A program made the translations under genes and the position numbers. This document shows, piece after piece, positions 7,395 to 26,056 of a DNA stretch of 64,000 bases. Position 1 is the first letter of the stretch. Every line of letters starts with the position of its first letter. The notes beneath the pieces were generated by a model, which did not search any database, was not told where the DNA came from, and worked only from the letters and a program-made list of their open reading frames with translations. The stretch is from Chitinophaga pinensis (GTDB lineage: Bacteria; Bacteroidota; Bacteroidia; Chitinophagales; CAMDFR01), in NCBI GenBank assembly GCA_945897725.1, contig CAMDFR010000003.1, positions 1-64,000 of the forward strand, in the 5' to 3' direction.

Positions 7395-8585
7395 ATGCCA
7401 AAAATATCAACAAGAGGAAATCATATGCCATCTTCTCCAATTAGGAAGTTAGTGCCGTATGCAGAAGCAGCAAAAAAAAGAGGAATCAAAGTTTTTCATT
7501 TAAATATTGGACAACCCGATATTAAAACACCTGAAGTAGCTCTAAATGCGGTGAAAAATGCAGATCTTAAAGTGTTGGAATATTCACATAGTGCAGGGAA
7601 CGAAAGTTATCGAAAAAAACTCGCCTTGTATTATCAAAAACATGGAATCAACATTACAGAGAATCAACTCATGATTACAGTTGGAGGTTCTGAGGCTATT
7701 CAGTTCGGGCTTTATTCATGCTTAGACGCTGGTGATGAAGTTATTATTCCAGAGCCGTTTTATGCGAATTATAATGGATTTGCGACAGCCGGAGATATTA
7801 TTGTAAAACCTATCACCTCTACCATTGAAACTGGTTTTGCCTTACCTGCTATTGAAGAATTTGAAAAACTAATCACTCCTAAAACAAAAGCAATCATTAT
7901 TTGCAATCCAAATAATCCAACGGGCTATTTGTACTCAAAAGAAGAATTATTGCACTTGCGTGAAATTGTCTTGAAGCATGATTTGTATTTATTTGCCGAC
8001 GAGGTATATAGAGAATTTTGTTATGATGGACAAACACATACTTCCATATTAAACCTCGACGGGTTGGAAGAAAACGCCATTGTAGTCGATAGTATTTCTA
8101 AAAGATTTAGTGCTTGTGGGGCAAGAATAGGTTGTCTAATCACACGAAATAAAAATGTAATTGATACGGCAATGAAATTTGCTCAGGCCAGATTGAGTCC
8201 TCCGTCATTAGGGCAAATCGTTGGGGAAGCGGCATTAGACACTCCTGCCGACTATTTTGAGGAAGTGTACCAAGAATATATCTCCAGAAGAAATAATATT
8301 GTCGAAAAATTAAATTCCATCCCAGGTGTCAAATGCCCAAACCCAGGTGGCGCTTTTTATGCAATGATAGAACTACCTGTAATGGATGCCGACAAATTCT
8401 GTCAGTGGCTACTAGAAGATTTTAATTTTGAAGGAAAAACAGTGATGATGGCTCCAGGTTCTGGCTTCTATTCTACGCCAGGCATGGGTAAAAACCAGGC
8501 TAGAGTTGCTTATGTACTTAAAAATGAAGATATAAACCAAGCAGTAGAATGTTTGGCAGAAGCGCTAAAAGTATATAAAGACTAA
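7395..8585 (+). CDS. PLP-dependent class I aminotransferase, 396 aa
   Basis: Fold-type I aminotransferase of the AspC/AAT family, transferring an amino group between an amino acid and a 2-oxo acid in the cytoplasm. The PLP-binding lysine is Lys236 in VDSISKRFSACG. NPNNPTG (161-167), ADEVYREF (Asp192, Tyr195) and the C-terminal Arg in GKNQARVAYV complete the active site. A longer frame opens at 7347, but the promoter-like TACCTTTG at 7383-7390 and the usual N-terminus of the family support 7395. The substrate (aspartate, aromatic or branched-chain) cannot be decided here. It stands alone between the DUF1573 terminator and L31. Confidence 0.88.
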   Translation: MPKISTRGNHMPSSPIRKLVPYAEAAKKRGIKVFHLNIGQPDIKTPEVALNAVKNADLKVLEYSHSAGNESYRKKLALYYQKHGINITENQLMITVGGSEAIQFGLYSCLDAGDEVIIPEPFYANYNGFATAGDIIVKPITSTIETGFALPAIEEFEKLITPKTKAIIICNPNNPTGYLYSKEELLHLREIVLKHDLYLFADEVYREFCYDGQTHTSILNLDGLEENAIVVDSISKRFSACGARIGCLITRNKNVIDTAMKFAQARLSPPSLGQIVGEAALDTPADYFEEVYQEYISRRNNIVEKLNSIPGVKCPNPGGAFYAMIELPVMDADKFCQWLLEDFNFEGKTVMMAPGSGFYSTPGMGKNQARVAYVLKNEDINQAVECLAEALKVYKD

Positions 8586-8611
8586 ATTATCATCAAAAAA
8601 ACTGCTAAAAG

Positions 8612-8642
8612 TTTAATAAAAAACAAAAAAGTGGTATCTTTG
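8612..8642 (+). promoter_or_regulatory. Promoter of the L31 gene
   Basis: TTTA (8612-8615), exactly 19 bases, then TATCTTTG (8635-8642), one mismatch from the Bacteroidota consensus. Transcription would begin near 8648 and leave a leader of about 45 bases. Confidence 0.6.
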
Positions 8643-8659
8643 CCATCCGATTTTTAACA

Positions 8660-8675
8660 CACGGCAACATCCGTG
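8660..8675 (+). promoter_or_regulatory. Small hairpin in the L31 5' leader
   Basis: CACGG (8660-8664) pairs with CCGTG (8671-8675) around CAACAT. It sits 18 bases before the L31 ATG. A role in autoregulation, common for ribosomal proteins, is speculation. Confidence 0.35.
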
Positions 8676-8693
8676 ACCAAAAAAAGCAATAAA

Positions 8694-8939
8694 ATGAAAA
8701 AAGACATACATCCAGAAAGCTACAGACAAGTTGTTTTTAAAGACATCTCAAACGATACATCATGGTTAGGTAAATCATGTGCAAACTCTCGTGAAAATGT
8801 AAAGTGGGAAGATGGTAATGAATACCCTGTCATTAAAGTGGAAATTTCTAATACATCACATCCTTTCTTTACAGGTAAAACCAAGTTTGTGGATACTGCA
8901 GGTAGAATTGAAAAATATCAGAAAAAATACAACAAATAA
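8694..8939 (+). CDS. rpmE2: 50S ribosomal protein L31, type B, 81 aa
   Basis: The protein is recognisable by [17 protein letters not shown], the central SWLGKSC and the C-terminal [20 protein letters not shown]. It has one cysteine and lacks the CxxC pair of zinc-binding L31, so it is the type B (zinc-independent) form that Bacteroidota use as their standard L31. It belongs to the central protuberance of the large subunit. The frame extends upstream to a GTG at 8673, but the ATG at 8694 matches the family start. It is single-gene, with its own promoter and terminator. Confidence 0.95.
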
Positions 8940-22789: not shown

Positions 22790-24184
22790 CTAAATAAACA
22801 GATGAAAAAGAAAGAATAAAGCAGCAGCTAACAAAATAGTTACTGGAAGCGTTAGAACCCATGCCAATGCGATGTTTGAGATCGTTCCTTTCTGTAAATT
22901 TTTGACGCCTTTGGCGGCCACCATGCTACCCGCAATACCACTTGAGAGTACATGTGTAGTGGAAACAGGCAATCCATAATAAGAGCTTAATCCAATCGTT
23001 GCTGCCGCTACTAATTCTGCAGAAGCGCCTTGAGCATAAGTTAAATGCGTCTTACCTATTTTCTCTCCAATCGTTACTACAATTCTTTTCCAGCCTATCA
23101 TGGTACCTAATCCTAAGCAGAACGATATCATCAAAACGGTCCAAAGTGGCGCATAATCTGTATAAGCTTTTAGTGGTTTCAAATCTACTTGAATGGCTTC
23201 AAGTGTTGCGACATTTACCCCACTTTCCTTATCTTTTACAAGTACATCATAACTCTTGCTAAGGGTTCCGATTGATTTTCTGATAGCAAATTTTTGCTTA
23301 GAATCTTTTGGATCCAATGTGGCAATTTGCTCTTTCAGTTTTACAGACGTCTCTAGGCACTTAGCGATTTCTATGTTATCCGTTTTAGTGGCCGCTGCGC
23401 TATAAGTAGCAACCAAATTTTCGACCTTTGGAGTCGCGTCTTTAATGTCTTTTGAAGGATCTATCGCAAATTTCAATGGCAAAAAAGTCATCAAGATAAC
23501 CAACAACAAACCCAAACCTTTTTGACCATCATTTTGACCATGAAAAAAACTCACTAAACCACATGTTGTAAACAAAATGGCTCTTATCCAAAATGGTGGT
23601 TTACTATCTTCTGATGGCTCCGAAAAAAGCACTTTATTCTTTATCACCATTCGTAAAAATATCATCAAAATAACCACCACGGCAAAACCAAAAAGTGGGG
23701 AAAATAATAATGACTTACCAATCTCAATCGCCTTCTCCCAATTAGGTCCTGCTCCTTTATAAAAATATTGAAAAGCTAAACCACCACCAATCAAGGCTCC
23801 AATTAAAGTATGTGAACTAGAACATGGAATACCAAAATACCATGTGATCAAATTCCAAAAGATGGCGGATAATAGAATCGCAAAAATAAGCGCAATGCCT
23901 ACCCCACTCGATTGAGCCATCATATCATTGATAGGCATCAATTTTAAAATTCCCATGGCAACCTTCGGTCCAATGAGATACAAGCTAGTAGTCATTCCTA
24001 AAAAATTAAGGATCCCCGAATAAACAACGGCATGAACCGGTTTCAGCGATTTGGTATAGATGACGGTAGCCACTGCATTGGCCGTGTCATGAAAACCATT
24101 AATGAATTCAAAGGCACAAACAGCTAATAGACAGAGTGCCAAAAGGACAACAGTAATTCCTGAGAATGATTCTAAAAAATCCAT
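22790..24184 (-). CDS. pit: Inorganic phosphate transporter, PiT family, 464 aa
   Basis: Low-affinity phosphate:cation symporter of the inner membrane. Both halves carry the PiT signature: NGFHDTANAVAT (residues 29-40) and GLPVSTTHVLSSG near the end, with SCSSHTLIGALIGG-like packing segments between. About ten membrane segments surround a hydrophilic central loop (about 250-335). A -7 element lies 26 bases upstream (24211-24218). No PhoU-like gene is adjacent. Confidence 0.93.
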   Translation of the reverse strand: MDFLESFSGITVVLLALCLLAVCAFEFINGFHDTANAVATVIYTKSLKPVHAVVYSGILNFLGMTTSLYLIGPKVAMGILKLMPINDMMAQSSGVGIALIFAILLSAIFWNLITWYFGIPCSSSHTLIGALIGGGLAFQYFYKGAGPNWEKAIEIGKSLLFSPLFGFAVVVILMIFLRMVIKNKVLFSEPSEDSKPPFWIRAILFTTCGLVSFFHGQNDGQKGLGLLLVILMTFLPLKFAIDPSKDIKDATPKVENLVATYSAAATKTDNIEIAKCLETSVKLKEQIATLDPKDSKQKFAIRKSIGTLSKSYDVLVKDKESGVNVATLEAIQVDLKPLKAYTDYAPLWTVLMISFCLGLGTMIGWKRIVVTIGEKIGKTHLTYAQGASAELVAAATIGLSSYYGLPVSTTHVLSSGIAGSMVAAKGVKNLQKGTISNIALAWVLTLPVTILLAAALFFLFHLFI

Positions 24185-24218: not shown

Positions 24219-24431
24219 GAGATAACATTTACTTCATGTGCCTATTTTAAAATAATTATACATTACCAAATGATGAACTAATTTTTGCTAAATCATTATC
24301 ACGCCCCATTGATGAACATCAAAGGCAATGCAATCACTTACTAAAAACGCCTCCCATAAAGGCTTTGAAGCTCTATGGAAACCAGAATTCTATCCTCCAC
24401 TTCACAATTTGCATCAAATCATTTTTTTGGG

Positions 24432-24502
24432 GCGTACCCGCGGCTAAAATCCCCGCGGTCGTGCTATACGCCTTACTTCGTGCCGGCTACTATCACTTAC
24501 GC
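24432..24502 (+). repeat. Structured intergenic repeat, copy 2 (shortest)
   Basis: The closing stem is GCGTA (24432-24436) with TACGC (24498-24502), against GCGTG/CACGC in the other copies, a compensated change. Arm 2 is CCGCGG (24438-24443) with CCGCGG (24453-24458). Arm 3 is weak (TA-c-GCC with GGC-TA, 24467-24472 and 24485-24489). The shared linker CGTGCTATACG and the 3' strand GGCTACTATCACT are kept. A competing pairing, GGCGTA (24431-24436) with TACGCC (24467-24472), also exists. Confidence 0.65.
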
Positions 24503-24544
24503 AGGCATTTCGTTTCTTTTTAAAACATTTATTCATTTTGTACC

Positions 24545-24606: not shown

Positions 24607-24704
24607 TAGAAATGCATGAGCATGTAATTCTTCTCCGTGGCGGGTGGCTTCCCGACACAATCTAACACATACCTATTCTGTCATTCATCCCGATGGCTAT
24701 CTTC

Positions 24705-24949
24705 TCTCCGTGGCGGGTGGCGCACCCGACACAATCTCTCAACTCATTTTATTACCAAATATCAATCTGAACGAAAAACCGCGGCAATGGGTGAAGCGTG
24801 TACCATGTACAGCGAAACACATGGTGGCATTGCCTTTGCAGCTTTGGCAATGACAGCCGCCCAAATTATCTTACGAATGGATATTTTACGCGCACCAGAT
24901 GTAAGCCTTGTGCAGGGGCCTTTTGCACCTTTGCAAACTCTCCGACGCT
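24705..24949. repeat. Long unit, copy A
   Basis: 245 bases, about 95% identical by eye to 25104-25348. Positions 24764-24862 (99 bases) are identical to 25164-25262. This copy carries the dead truA end (24866-24949). The identical core can fold: ACCATGT pairs with ACATGGT, and CATTGCC pairs with GGCAATG. Confidence 0.75.
24866..24949 (-). pseudogene. truA 3'-end fragment (27 codons plus stop)
   Basis: Read on the minus strand this gives SVGEFAKVQKAPAQGLHLVR then VKYPFVR and TAA, the same as the end of the intact TruA except Thr to Ala, Ser to Arg and Lys to Arg. Frame and stop are intact but there is no upstream part; similarity ends exactly at the Ser codon, where the next repeat module begins (24951). 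It cannot encode pseudouridine synthase. Confidence 0.75.
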
Positions 24950-25103
24950 CTCTCCGTGGCGGGTGGCGCACCCGACACAAATCAACACATACCTCTTTTG
25001 TCATTCATCCCGATGGCTATCGGGAGGAAACTTCTTGCCTTAAGAGATGAATACAATTGATAAGAAAATTTTAATTGGACGATGAATCTGCTGTAGCTAA
25101 CCT

Positions 25104-25348
25104 TCTCCGTGGCGGGTGGCGCACCCGACACAATCTCTCAACTCGTTTTATTACCAAATTTTTAATCTGAACGAAAAACCGCGGCAATGGGTGAAGCGTG
25201 TACCATGTACAGCGAAACACATGGTGGCATTGCCTTTGCAGCTTTGGCAATGACAGCCGCCCGTTTATTTTACAAATGGATATTTTACGCTCACTAGATG
25301 TAAGCCTTGTGCAGGCGCCTTTTGCACCTTTGTAAACTCTCCGACGCT
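25104..25348. repeat. Long unit, copy B, overlapping the truA 3' end
   Basis: Second copy of the 245-base unit. Its right part (25265-25348) is the functional end of truA; its left part (25104-25264) is the non-coding module that lies immediately after the truA stop. Confidence 0.75.
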
Positions 25349-26056
25349 ATCCATAATTTGAACGAATTCTGCTTTGGTCAATTTACCTTCACCAATAGCA
25401 ATCAAGGTGCCAACAATCCTGCGCACCATATTATGCAAGAATCGATTGGCCGCAATATTTAGTTTGTAGGAAGAGGGACCTGTCTGTATCCACGCACATT
25501 TTGTGAGCAGACAAATCGTGGTTTTATTATCAGGATTGAACTTGCTCAAAGGCTTGAAATCCGTATAGTTCATCAGTAGCGAAGCACATTCATTCATCAG
25601 TGCAACATCTGGTTTTGAAAATCGATATTCAGTGCTAAATTTTCTAAGAAATGGATCCTTTTTAAAATGAAGATGATAATCGTATTCTCTTTCAGTAGCA
25701 TCAAATCGTGCATTGGCATCGGCATGAACCGCCCATATATCAAAGACTACAATATCATTGGGTAACACATTATTAAGCTTAAATAAAAATTGATCTGGCA
25801 AGATTTTAAAGCAATCGAAATGCGCATAATAATTGGTAGCATGAACGCCTGTATCCGTTCTCCCACAACCCACAACACCTGTCTTGTGATTCAAAATTTT
25901 CGAAATGGCTTTCTCTACTTTCTCTTGTACACTGATGACAGAAAGCTGGTTTTGCCAACCAAAATAATTGCTTCCATCATAAGCCATGTGCATAAAATAT
26001 CTTTGTCGATATCCTTGCTCTAAGACTGCTTCTTCAATATTATCTAAGTCGACCAA
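25265..26056 (-). CDS. truA: tRNA pseudouridine(38-40) synthase, 263 aa
   Basis: Converts uridine 38, 39 or 40 in the tRNA anticodon arm to pseudouridine. The catalytic aspartate is Asp68 in GCGRTDTGVHA; MAYDGSNYFGWQ near the N-terminus and NRFLHNMVRRIVGTLI are family motifs. The start is uncertain: 26056 gives about 20 residues before the usual family start, and Met22 or Met24 are alternatives. It follows the thiolase gene by 42-43 bases. Its last 28 codons lie inside a repeat unit that occurs again downstream, so the 3' end has been duplicated. Confidence 0.93.
   Translation of the reverse strand: MVDLDNIEEAVLEQGYRQRYFMHMAYDGSNYFGWQNQLSVISVQEKVEKAISKILNHKTGVVGCGRTDTGVHATNYYAHFDCFKILPDQFLFKLNNVLPNDIVVFDIWAVHADANARFDATEREYDYHLHFKKDPFLRKFSTEYRFSKPDVALMNECASLLMNYTDFKPLSKFNPDNKTTICLLTKCAWIQTGPSSYKLNIAANRFLHNMVRRIVGTLIAIGEGKLTKAEFVQIMDSVGEFTKVQKAPAQGLHLVSVKYPFVK

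Follow-up and report, generated by a model that had tools for sequence, protein, structure and literature searches.

The final 27 codons of truA, together with its stop, lie twice, side by side, in the 64,000-nucleotide stretch of Chitinophaga pinensis DNA analyzed here (contig CAMDFR010000003.1; hereafter the window), once at the end of the intact gene and once as a detached copy, and the intergenic repeats that follow the stop are duplicated with them. The nearest relative carries the same region in a single copy. This arrangement is very probably the product of an ordinary tandem duplication that left a dead gene-end fragment beside intact truA.

Layout and extent of the duplication

The features of the region are as follows:

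25265–26056, minus strand: intact truA, 263 aa (TIGR00071 hisT_truA, 149.9 bits against a cut-off of 142.85; PF01416 also matched)
25265–25348, minus strand: truA tail B, the intact gene's last 27 codons and stop (pairwise alignment)
24866–24949, minus strand: truA tail A, the detached copy, 92.9% identical with three amino-acid changes, without start or gene body
25164–25272, minus strand: structured repeat R directly after the truA stop (model match, including a few flanking bases)
24764–24872, minus strand: structured repeat R after the detached tail (model match)
24420–24519, plus strand: weak additional match to the R model, the third in this intergenic region (29.1 bits, E 1e-6)
24632–24950, no strand assigned: duplication unit 1, comprising module b, M, module b, R and tail A (self-alignment)
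24951–25350, no strand assigned: duplication unit 2, comprising module b, M, 79 extra bases, module b, R and tail B, which runs on into truA (self-alignment)
25022–25100, no strand assigned: about 79 bases in unit 2 only, without counterpart in unit 1 (alignment)
22790–24184, minus strand: downstream phosphate transporter gene, not part of the duplication (PF01384)

Tails A and B align without gaps over 84 bases, of which 6 differ (E 2e-30 for a search space of this genome's size), and encode SVGEFAKVQKAPAQGLHLVRVKYPFVR and SVGEFTKVQKAPAQGLHLVSVKYPFVK, respectively, each of 27 codons followed by a stop. This agrees with an earlier note on this DNA, which had claimed that the gene's end recurs in frame with three amino-acid changes, that the rest of the gene is missing from the copy and that the copy stops at a repeat-module boundary. 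The truA-internal edge of tail A indeed abuts a dispersed module: the junction reads CGACGCT and then CTCTCCGTGG, the start of module b, where truA itself goes on CGACGCTATCC. Two places in the genome match the tail, the full gene being one, and no further truA tail was found there.

The same note had proposed a partial duplication of the gene end plus its downstream repeat. Collinear units support this proposal, but its extent was understated. Beyond the tail, similarity runs on through a 106-base repeat (24757–24862 versus 25157–25262, 97%), a 56-base module (24705–24760 versus 25104–25159, 98%) and a further 70 bases (24632–24701 versus 24951–25021, about 89–90%), so that the repeats are collinear across the entire unit at a spacing of 399–400, save for the 79-base gap. 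Part of a gene is repeated side by side and the full gene is kept, as in partial tandem gene duplicates, a class that Katju (2012, PMC3449122) describes as common in several eukaryotes. The likeness lies in a copied part, a retained full gene and an incomplete fragment; the difference is that the published account treats mostly eukaryotes, whereas the present case is bacterial and involves only a 3′ end with intergenic repeats.

Module b (CGTGGCGGGTGGCGCACCCGACACAA) forms a small hairpin and occurs in three exact copies in the window (24705–24735, 24951–24981 and 25104–25134), with four relatives carrying 3 mismatches elsewhere in the genome. The two ORFs overlapping the copy (24762–25004 on the minus strand and 24637–25050 on the plus strand) gave no Pfam match, and a coding role for them was rejected. 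A terminator scan returned a single terminator-like site, on the minus strand at 24349–24363 and outside both units, with 1.1 expected.

Relatives and the age of the duplication

Comparison of truA 3′ flanks in relatives, a check that the earlier note suggested for sister strains, places the second tail in this genome only among four of the genus. The three other members (G001, G002 and G003) have one TruA match each, and the locus of the nearest, G002 (CAMBZT010000058.1; TruA 95% identical in protein), has one tail. In this sister genome truA is followed by one R, one b and then the flank shared with the window; module M is absent, and the gap from truA to the transporter gene measures 612 bases versus 1080 in the window, or 468 fewer. 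Analysis with blastn found no self-repeats in the fetched truA loci of the three relatives, that of G003 reaching only 203 bases past its match.

Over 246 aligned columns, the two copies differ from each other in 13 and from the sister in 17 and 22. Both window copies stand together against the sister in 13 columns, the intact copy stands alone in 9 and the detached copy alone in 4, the excess of 9 over 4 being within chance (p 0.27). The corresponding counts for the 84 coding bases are 3, 4 and 2, and a comparison of coding with noncoding differences between the copies gave p 0.38. Because the column counts (9 and 4) show that each copy has mutations of its own, the duplication appears not to be recent on the scale of the two species, contrary to the earlier description of it as recent.

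The preferred reading would tentatively place the duplication after the species split. We consider it improbable that the duplication predates the split, the sister having lost one unit by recombination between the copies and kept a detached-like tail. Such a history would account for the 9 columns at which detached tail and sister agree against the intact gene. It would also suit tail sites 54 and 58, where G001 and G003 carry the intact-gene state and the detached copy and sister carry the other; taken alone, these two coding sites would put the duplication before the split, although the outgroup evidence is weak because the TruA proteins of G001 and G003 are only 58–59% identical. Against such a history stand the 13 columns that join both copies in opposition to the sister, of which 10 are noncoding; an extra loss would be required, and module M is also missing from the sister.

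Less probable still is the suggestion, also made in the earlier note, that the end of a second truA allele was acquired by recombination. In this scenario intact truA would owe its present end to a different allele or to an element that had integrated at the 3′ end; the displaced original would survive as the detached tail, in an attL/attR-like arrangement. The detached tail does keep more sister-shared states (9 versus 4 columns), along with the TTTGGG edge of R seen in the sister and lost from the intact copy. Yet that excess is not significant, and the intact tail does not stand out in its divergence from the sister (7 of 84 bases, with 49 of 263 codons differing over the whole gene). In their noncoding parts the two copies resemble each other more than either resembles the sister, and R and b are common to both units and present at the same place in the sister. 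Furthermore, only ~315 bases separate the tails, Pfam analysis of two ORFs in this interval found no integrase or other element gene, and truA as an integration site was not found in the literature searched.

Junction, route and similar duplications

In the preferred reading, a single tandem duplication of ~400 bases would have occurred between truA and the phosphate transporter gene. One breakpoint would fall within the final tenth of the truA gene, the second in the short dispersed module b, and the copied unit would comprise module b, M, module b, repeat R and the end of truA. Of the two copies, the one adjoining the gene body would have remained the functional gene end, and the distal copy would have become a gene-end fragment without start and, most likely, without role. 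Each copy would afterwards have gained its own mutations, and ~79 bases would later have been deleted from unit 1 or inserted in unit 2.

CTCTCCG-like strings are present at both breakpoints, in truA and in b. The join itself shows only 1–2 bases of clear microhomology and so does not fix the exact recombination path; slippage or illegitimate recombination between short similar sequences in the repeat-rich gap is the probable route. Spontaneous chromosomal duplications in Salmonella are described as frequent and, as proposed here, joined at short similar sequences (PMC3411829). In contrast to the 1–2 bases at this join, the microhomology cut-off deduced in that account for true duplications is 11 or more bases. 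The junction was searched for in viral contigs and found in none, and no description of a truA tail duplication was found in the literature searched, which lay mostly outside subscription journals.

The arrangement might also be an assembly artefact, for example a metagenome contig that merges two strain variants. The genome is a 50-contig, 84.7% complete assembly, and the longest exact run noticed as common to the units is 99 bases, both of which lend the idea some credit. Misassembly needs a shared run at the join, however, where there is almost none. Since the junction is almost without shared sequence and both copies carry private mutations, an artefact seems unlikely, and a similar, more decayed duplication elsewhere in the genome also argues against it.

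That duplication emerged from a self-comparison of 464 kb of the genome, including the window, for pairs of at least 50 bases within 3 kb. On contig C2, an RluF/RsuA-like pseudouridine synthase gene has its end repeated side by side, together with the start of the small gene that follows, at 148020–148264 and 148566–148816 (8020–8264 and 8566–8816 of locus L049) with 77% identity. The remnant is frameshifted, and a satellite match lies at C2 148254/149001. The RluF/RsuA-like gene is present in G001 and G003, and none was found in the sister assembly. Gene-end fragments are therefore not unique to truA in this genome, and this one serves as a precedent for the preferred reading. The comparison also returned intergenic pairs at C2 14997/15378, 156674/157971 and 157864/159313 and one short pair on contig C1; the remaining matches were repeats lying within individual long ORFs and a single pair of similar neighboring ORFs. 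The first of the intergenic pairs (C2 14997–15156 and 15378–15537, locus L042) is a direct repeat of 160 bases with 94% identity; at this site the sister lacks ~540 bases, part of which match dispersed repeats elsewhere in its genome.

The fate of the detached tail is suggested by its substitutions. Private coding changes comprise three synonymous and one amino-acid change in the intact tail and two in the detached tail, both amino-acid changes; these numbers are small, and they would fit a pair of one used and one unused copy. The fragment is presumably without function. Retention for a function, for example to supply gene conversion at the TruA end or to form part of a transcript, is the least credible of the alternatives: frame and stop are intact, but an intact 27-codon frame would be unremarkable at 7% divergence, both private changes alter the protein, the open frame containing the tail has just 44 codons, and the sister has no such tail.

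The structured repeat R

Relatives of the repeat at the truA stop were found elsewhere in the genome. Thirteen copies aligned by sequence alone reveal four helices around a junction, with 96.3% of cells pairing versus 85.0% in shuffles and 32 cells changed on both sides versus 9.5 in shuffles; sliding the partner by 1–3 columns lowers pairing to 25–54%. Among 57 model-fitted copies, 22 of 24 pairs are changed on both sides (346 cells versus 87.5), as are 18 of 24 pairs (120 cells versus 31.4) among 25 copies from other genomes, none of which entered model building. Fitted alignments of this kind lean towards the structure, and slides do not reproduce the pairing. The structure is visible only in many-copy alignment, single-sequence folding giving no excess stability (z −0.06, 0.08 and −0.30). 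A GGGCGTG...GGTCGGGCTATCCGC...CCCTCACGC pattern is seen in R copies from other genera, and we take it to be common in genomes of this phylum.

At matching sites in the window's genome and the sister, 12 R pairs differ at 26 of 569 stem positions (4.6%) and 108 of 786 loop positions (13.7%), compared with 13.5% and 20.7% in the flanks. Among these pairs, both window copies are compared with a single sister copy, and one copy of this genome is compared with two sister loci. Orthologues were taken only from copies already fetched, mostly the best scoring, and the apparent conservation of stems and loops is biased upwards for that reason.

Scoring 150 candidates per genome at an E of up to 0.01 gave at least 86 copies of R in this genome, at least 62 in the sister and none in G001 or G003. 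Matches occur in 6 of 149 genomes of the order, this genome and the sister included, and in at least 32 of 296 sampled genomes of the phylum, where counts are lower bounds because only 13 candidates were scored per genome. Gene context was analyzed for 43 of the 57 matches, the other 14 being 7 matches in further genomes of the order and 7 weak matches in this genome. Two of the 43 had no 5′-side gene; of the remaining 41, 21 follow a same-strand gene (median 15 bases after its stop) and 20 lie beside an opposite-strand gene. With 21 against 20, neither strand is clearly preferred by R, and this argues against a plain terminator.

Rfam gave no match in the window between 24200 and 25500, and none on R at six R loci; one of these loci has a Flavo-1 RNA match (RF01705; L082 1640–1726) directly beside its R copy. 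In REP elements mobilized by RAYT transposases, the repeats flank the transposase gene. Five Y1_Tnp matches exceed the cut-off in this genome, and by coordinate comparison each lies more than 1 kb from every listed R copy. A sub-threshold Y1 transposase match was seen on contig C9 (7360–7596), ~350 bases from the R copy at C9 6909–7010. REP elements of the GTAG or CGTC superfamilies are described as palindromes of 20–40 bases with a GTAG or CGTC end tag, and their tandem clusters as carrying flanking DNA along (PMC3733652). Compared with such clustered elements, R is larger, at about 90–155 bases, has several helices and lacks a GTAG or CGTC end tag. R does not fit these two superfamilies, its model matches spanning 87–155 bases with four helices and beginning, by inspection, with GGGC. 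A description of R was likewise sought in the literature, mostly outside subscription journals, and none was found.

We tentatively propose that R, duplicated here along with the end of truA, is one instance of a large and uncatalogued structured element found in the phylum. In this element several helices surround a junction, stems vary widely yet stay paired, copies often lie just after stop codons, and stems at matching sites of two species hardly differ. Such an element may act at gene ends as a functional structure of DNA or RNA, and small duplications like that of truA may arise in its clusters.

Overall, the truA tail duplication is real and ordinary. In itself it matters little, although it neatly illustrates the origin of gene-end fragments next to repeats and warns that these may be misread as genes or second alleles. 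R, rather than the duplication, deserves further attention. The repeat may matter more, given exceptional covariation across the phylum with no Rfam match, and would be worth describing; its candidate roles, as transcript end, DNA structure or mobile element, are directly testable.
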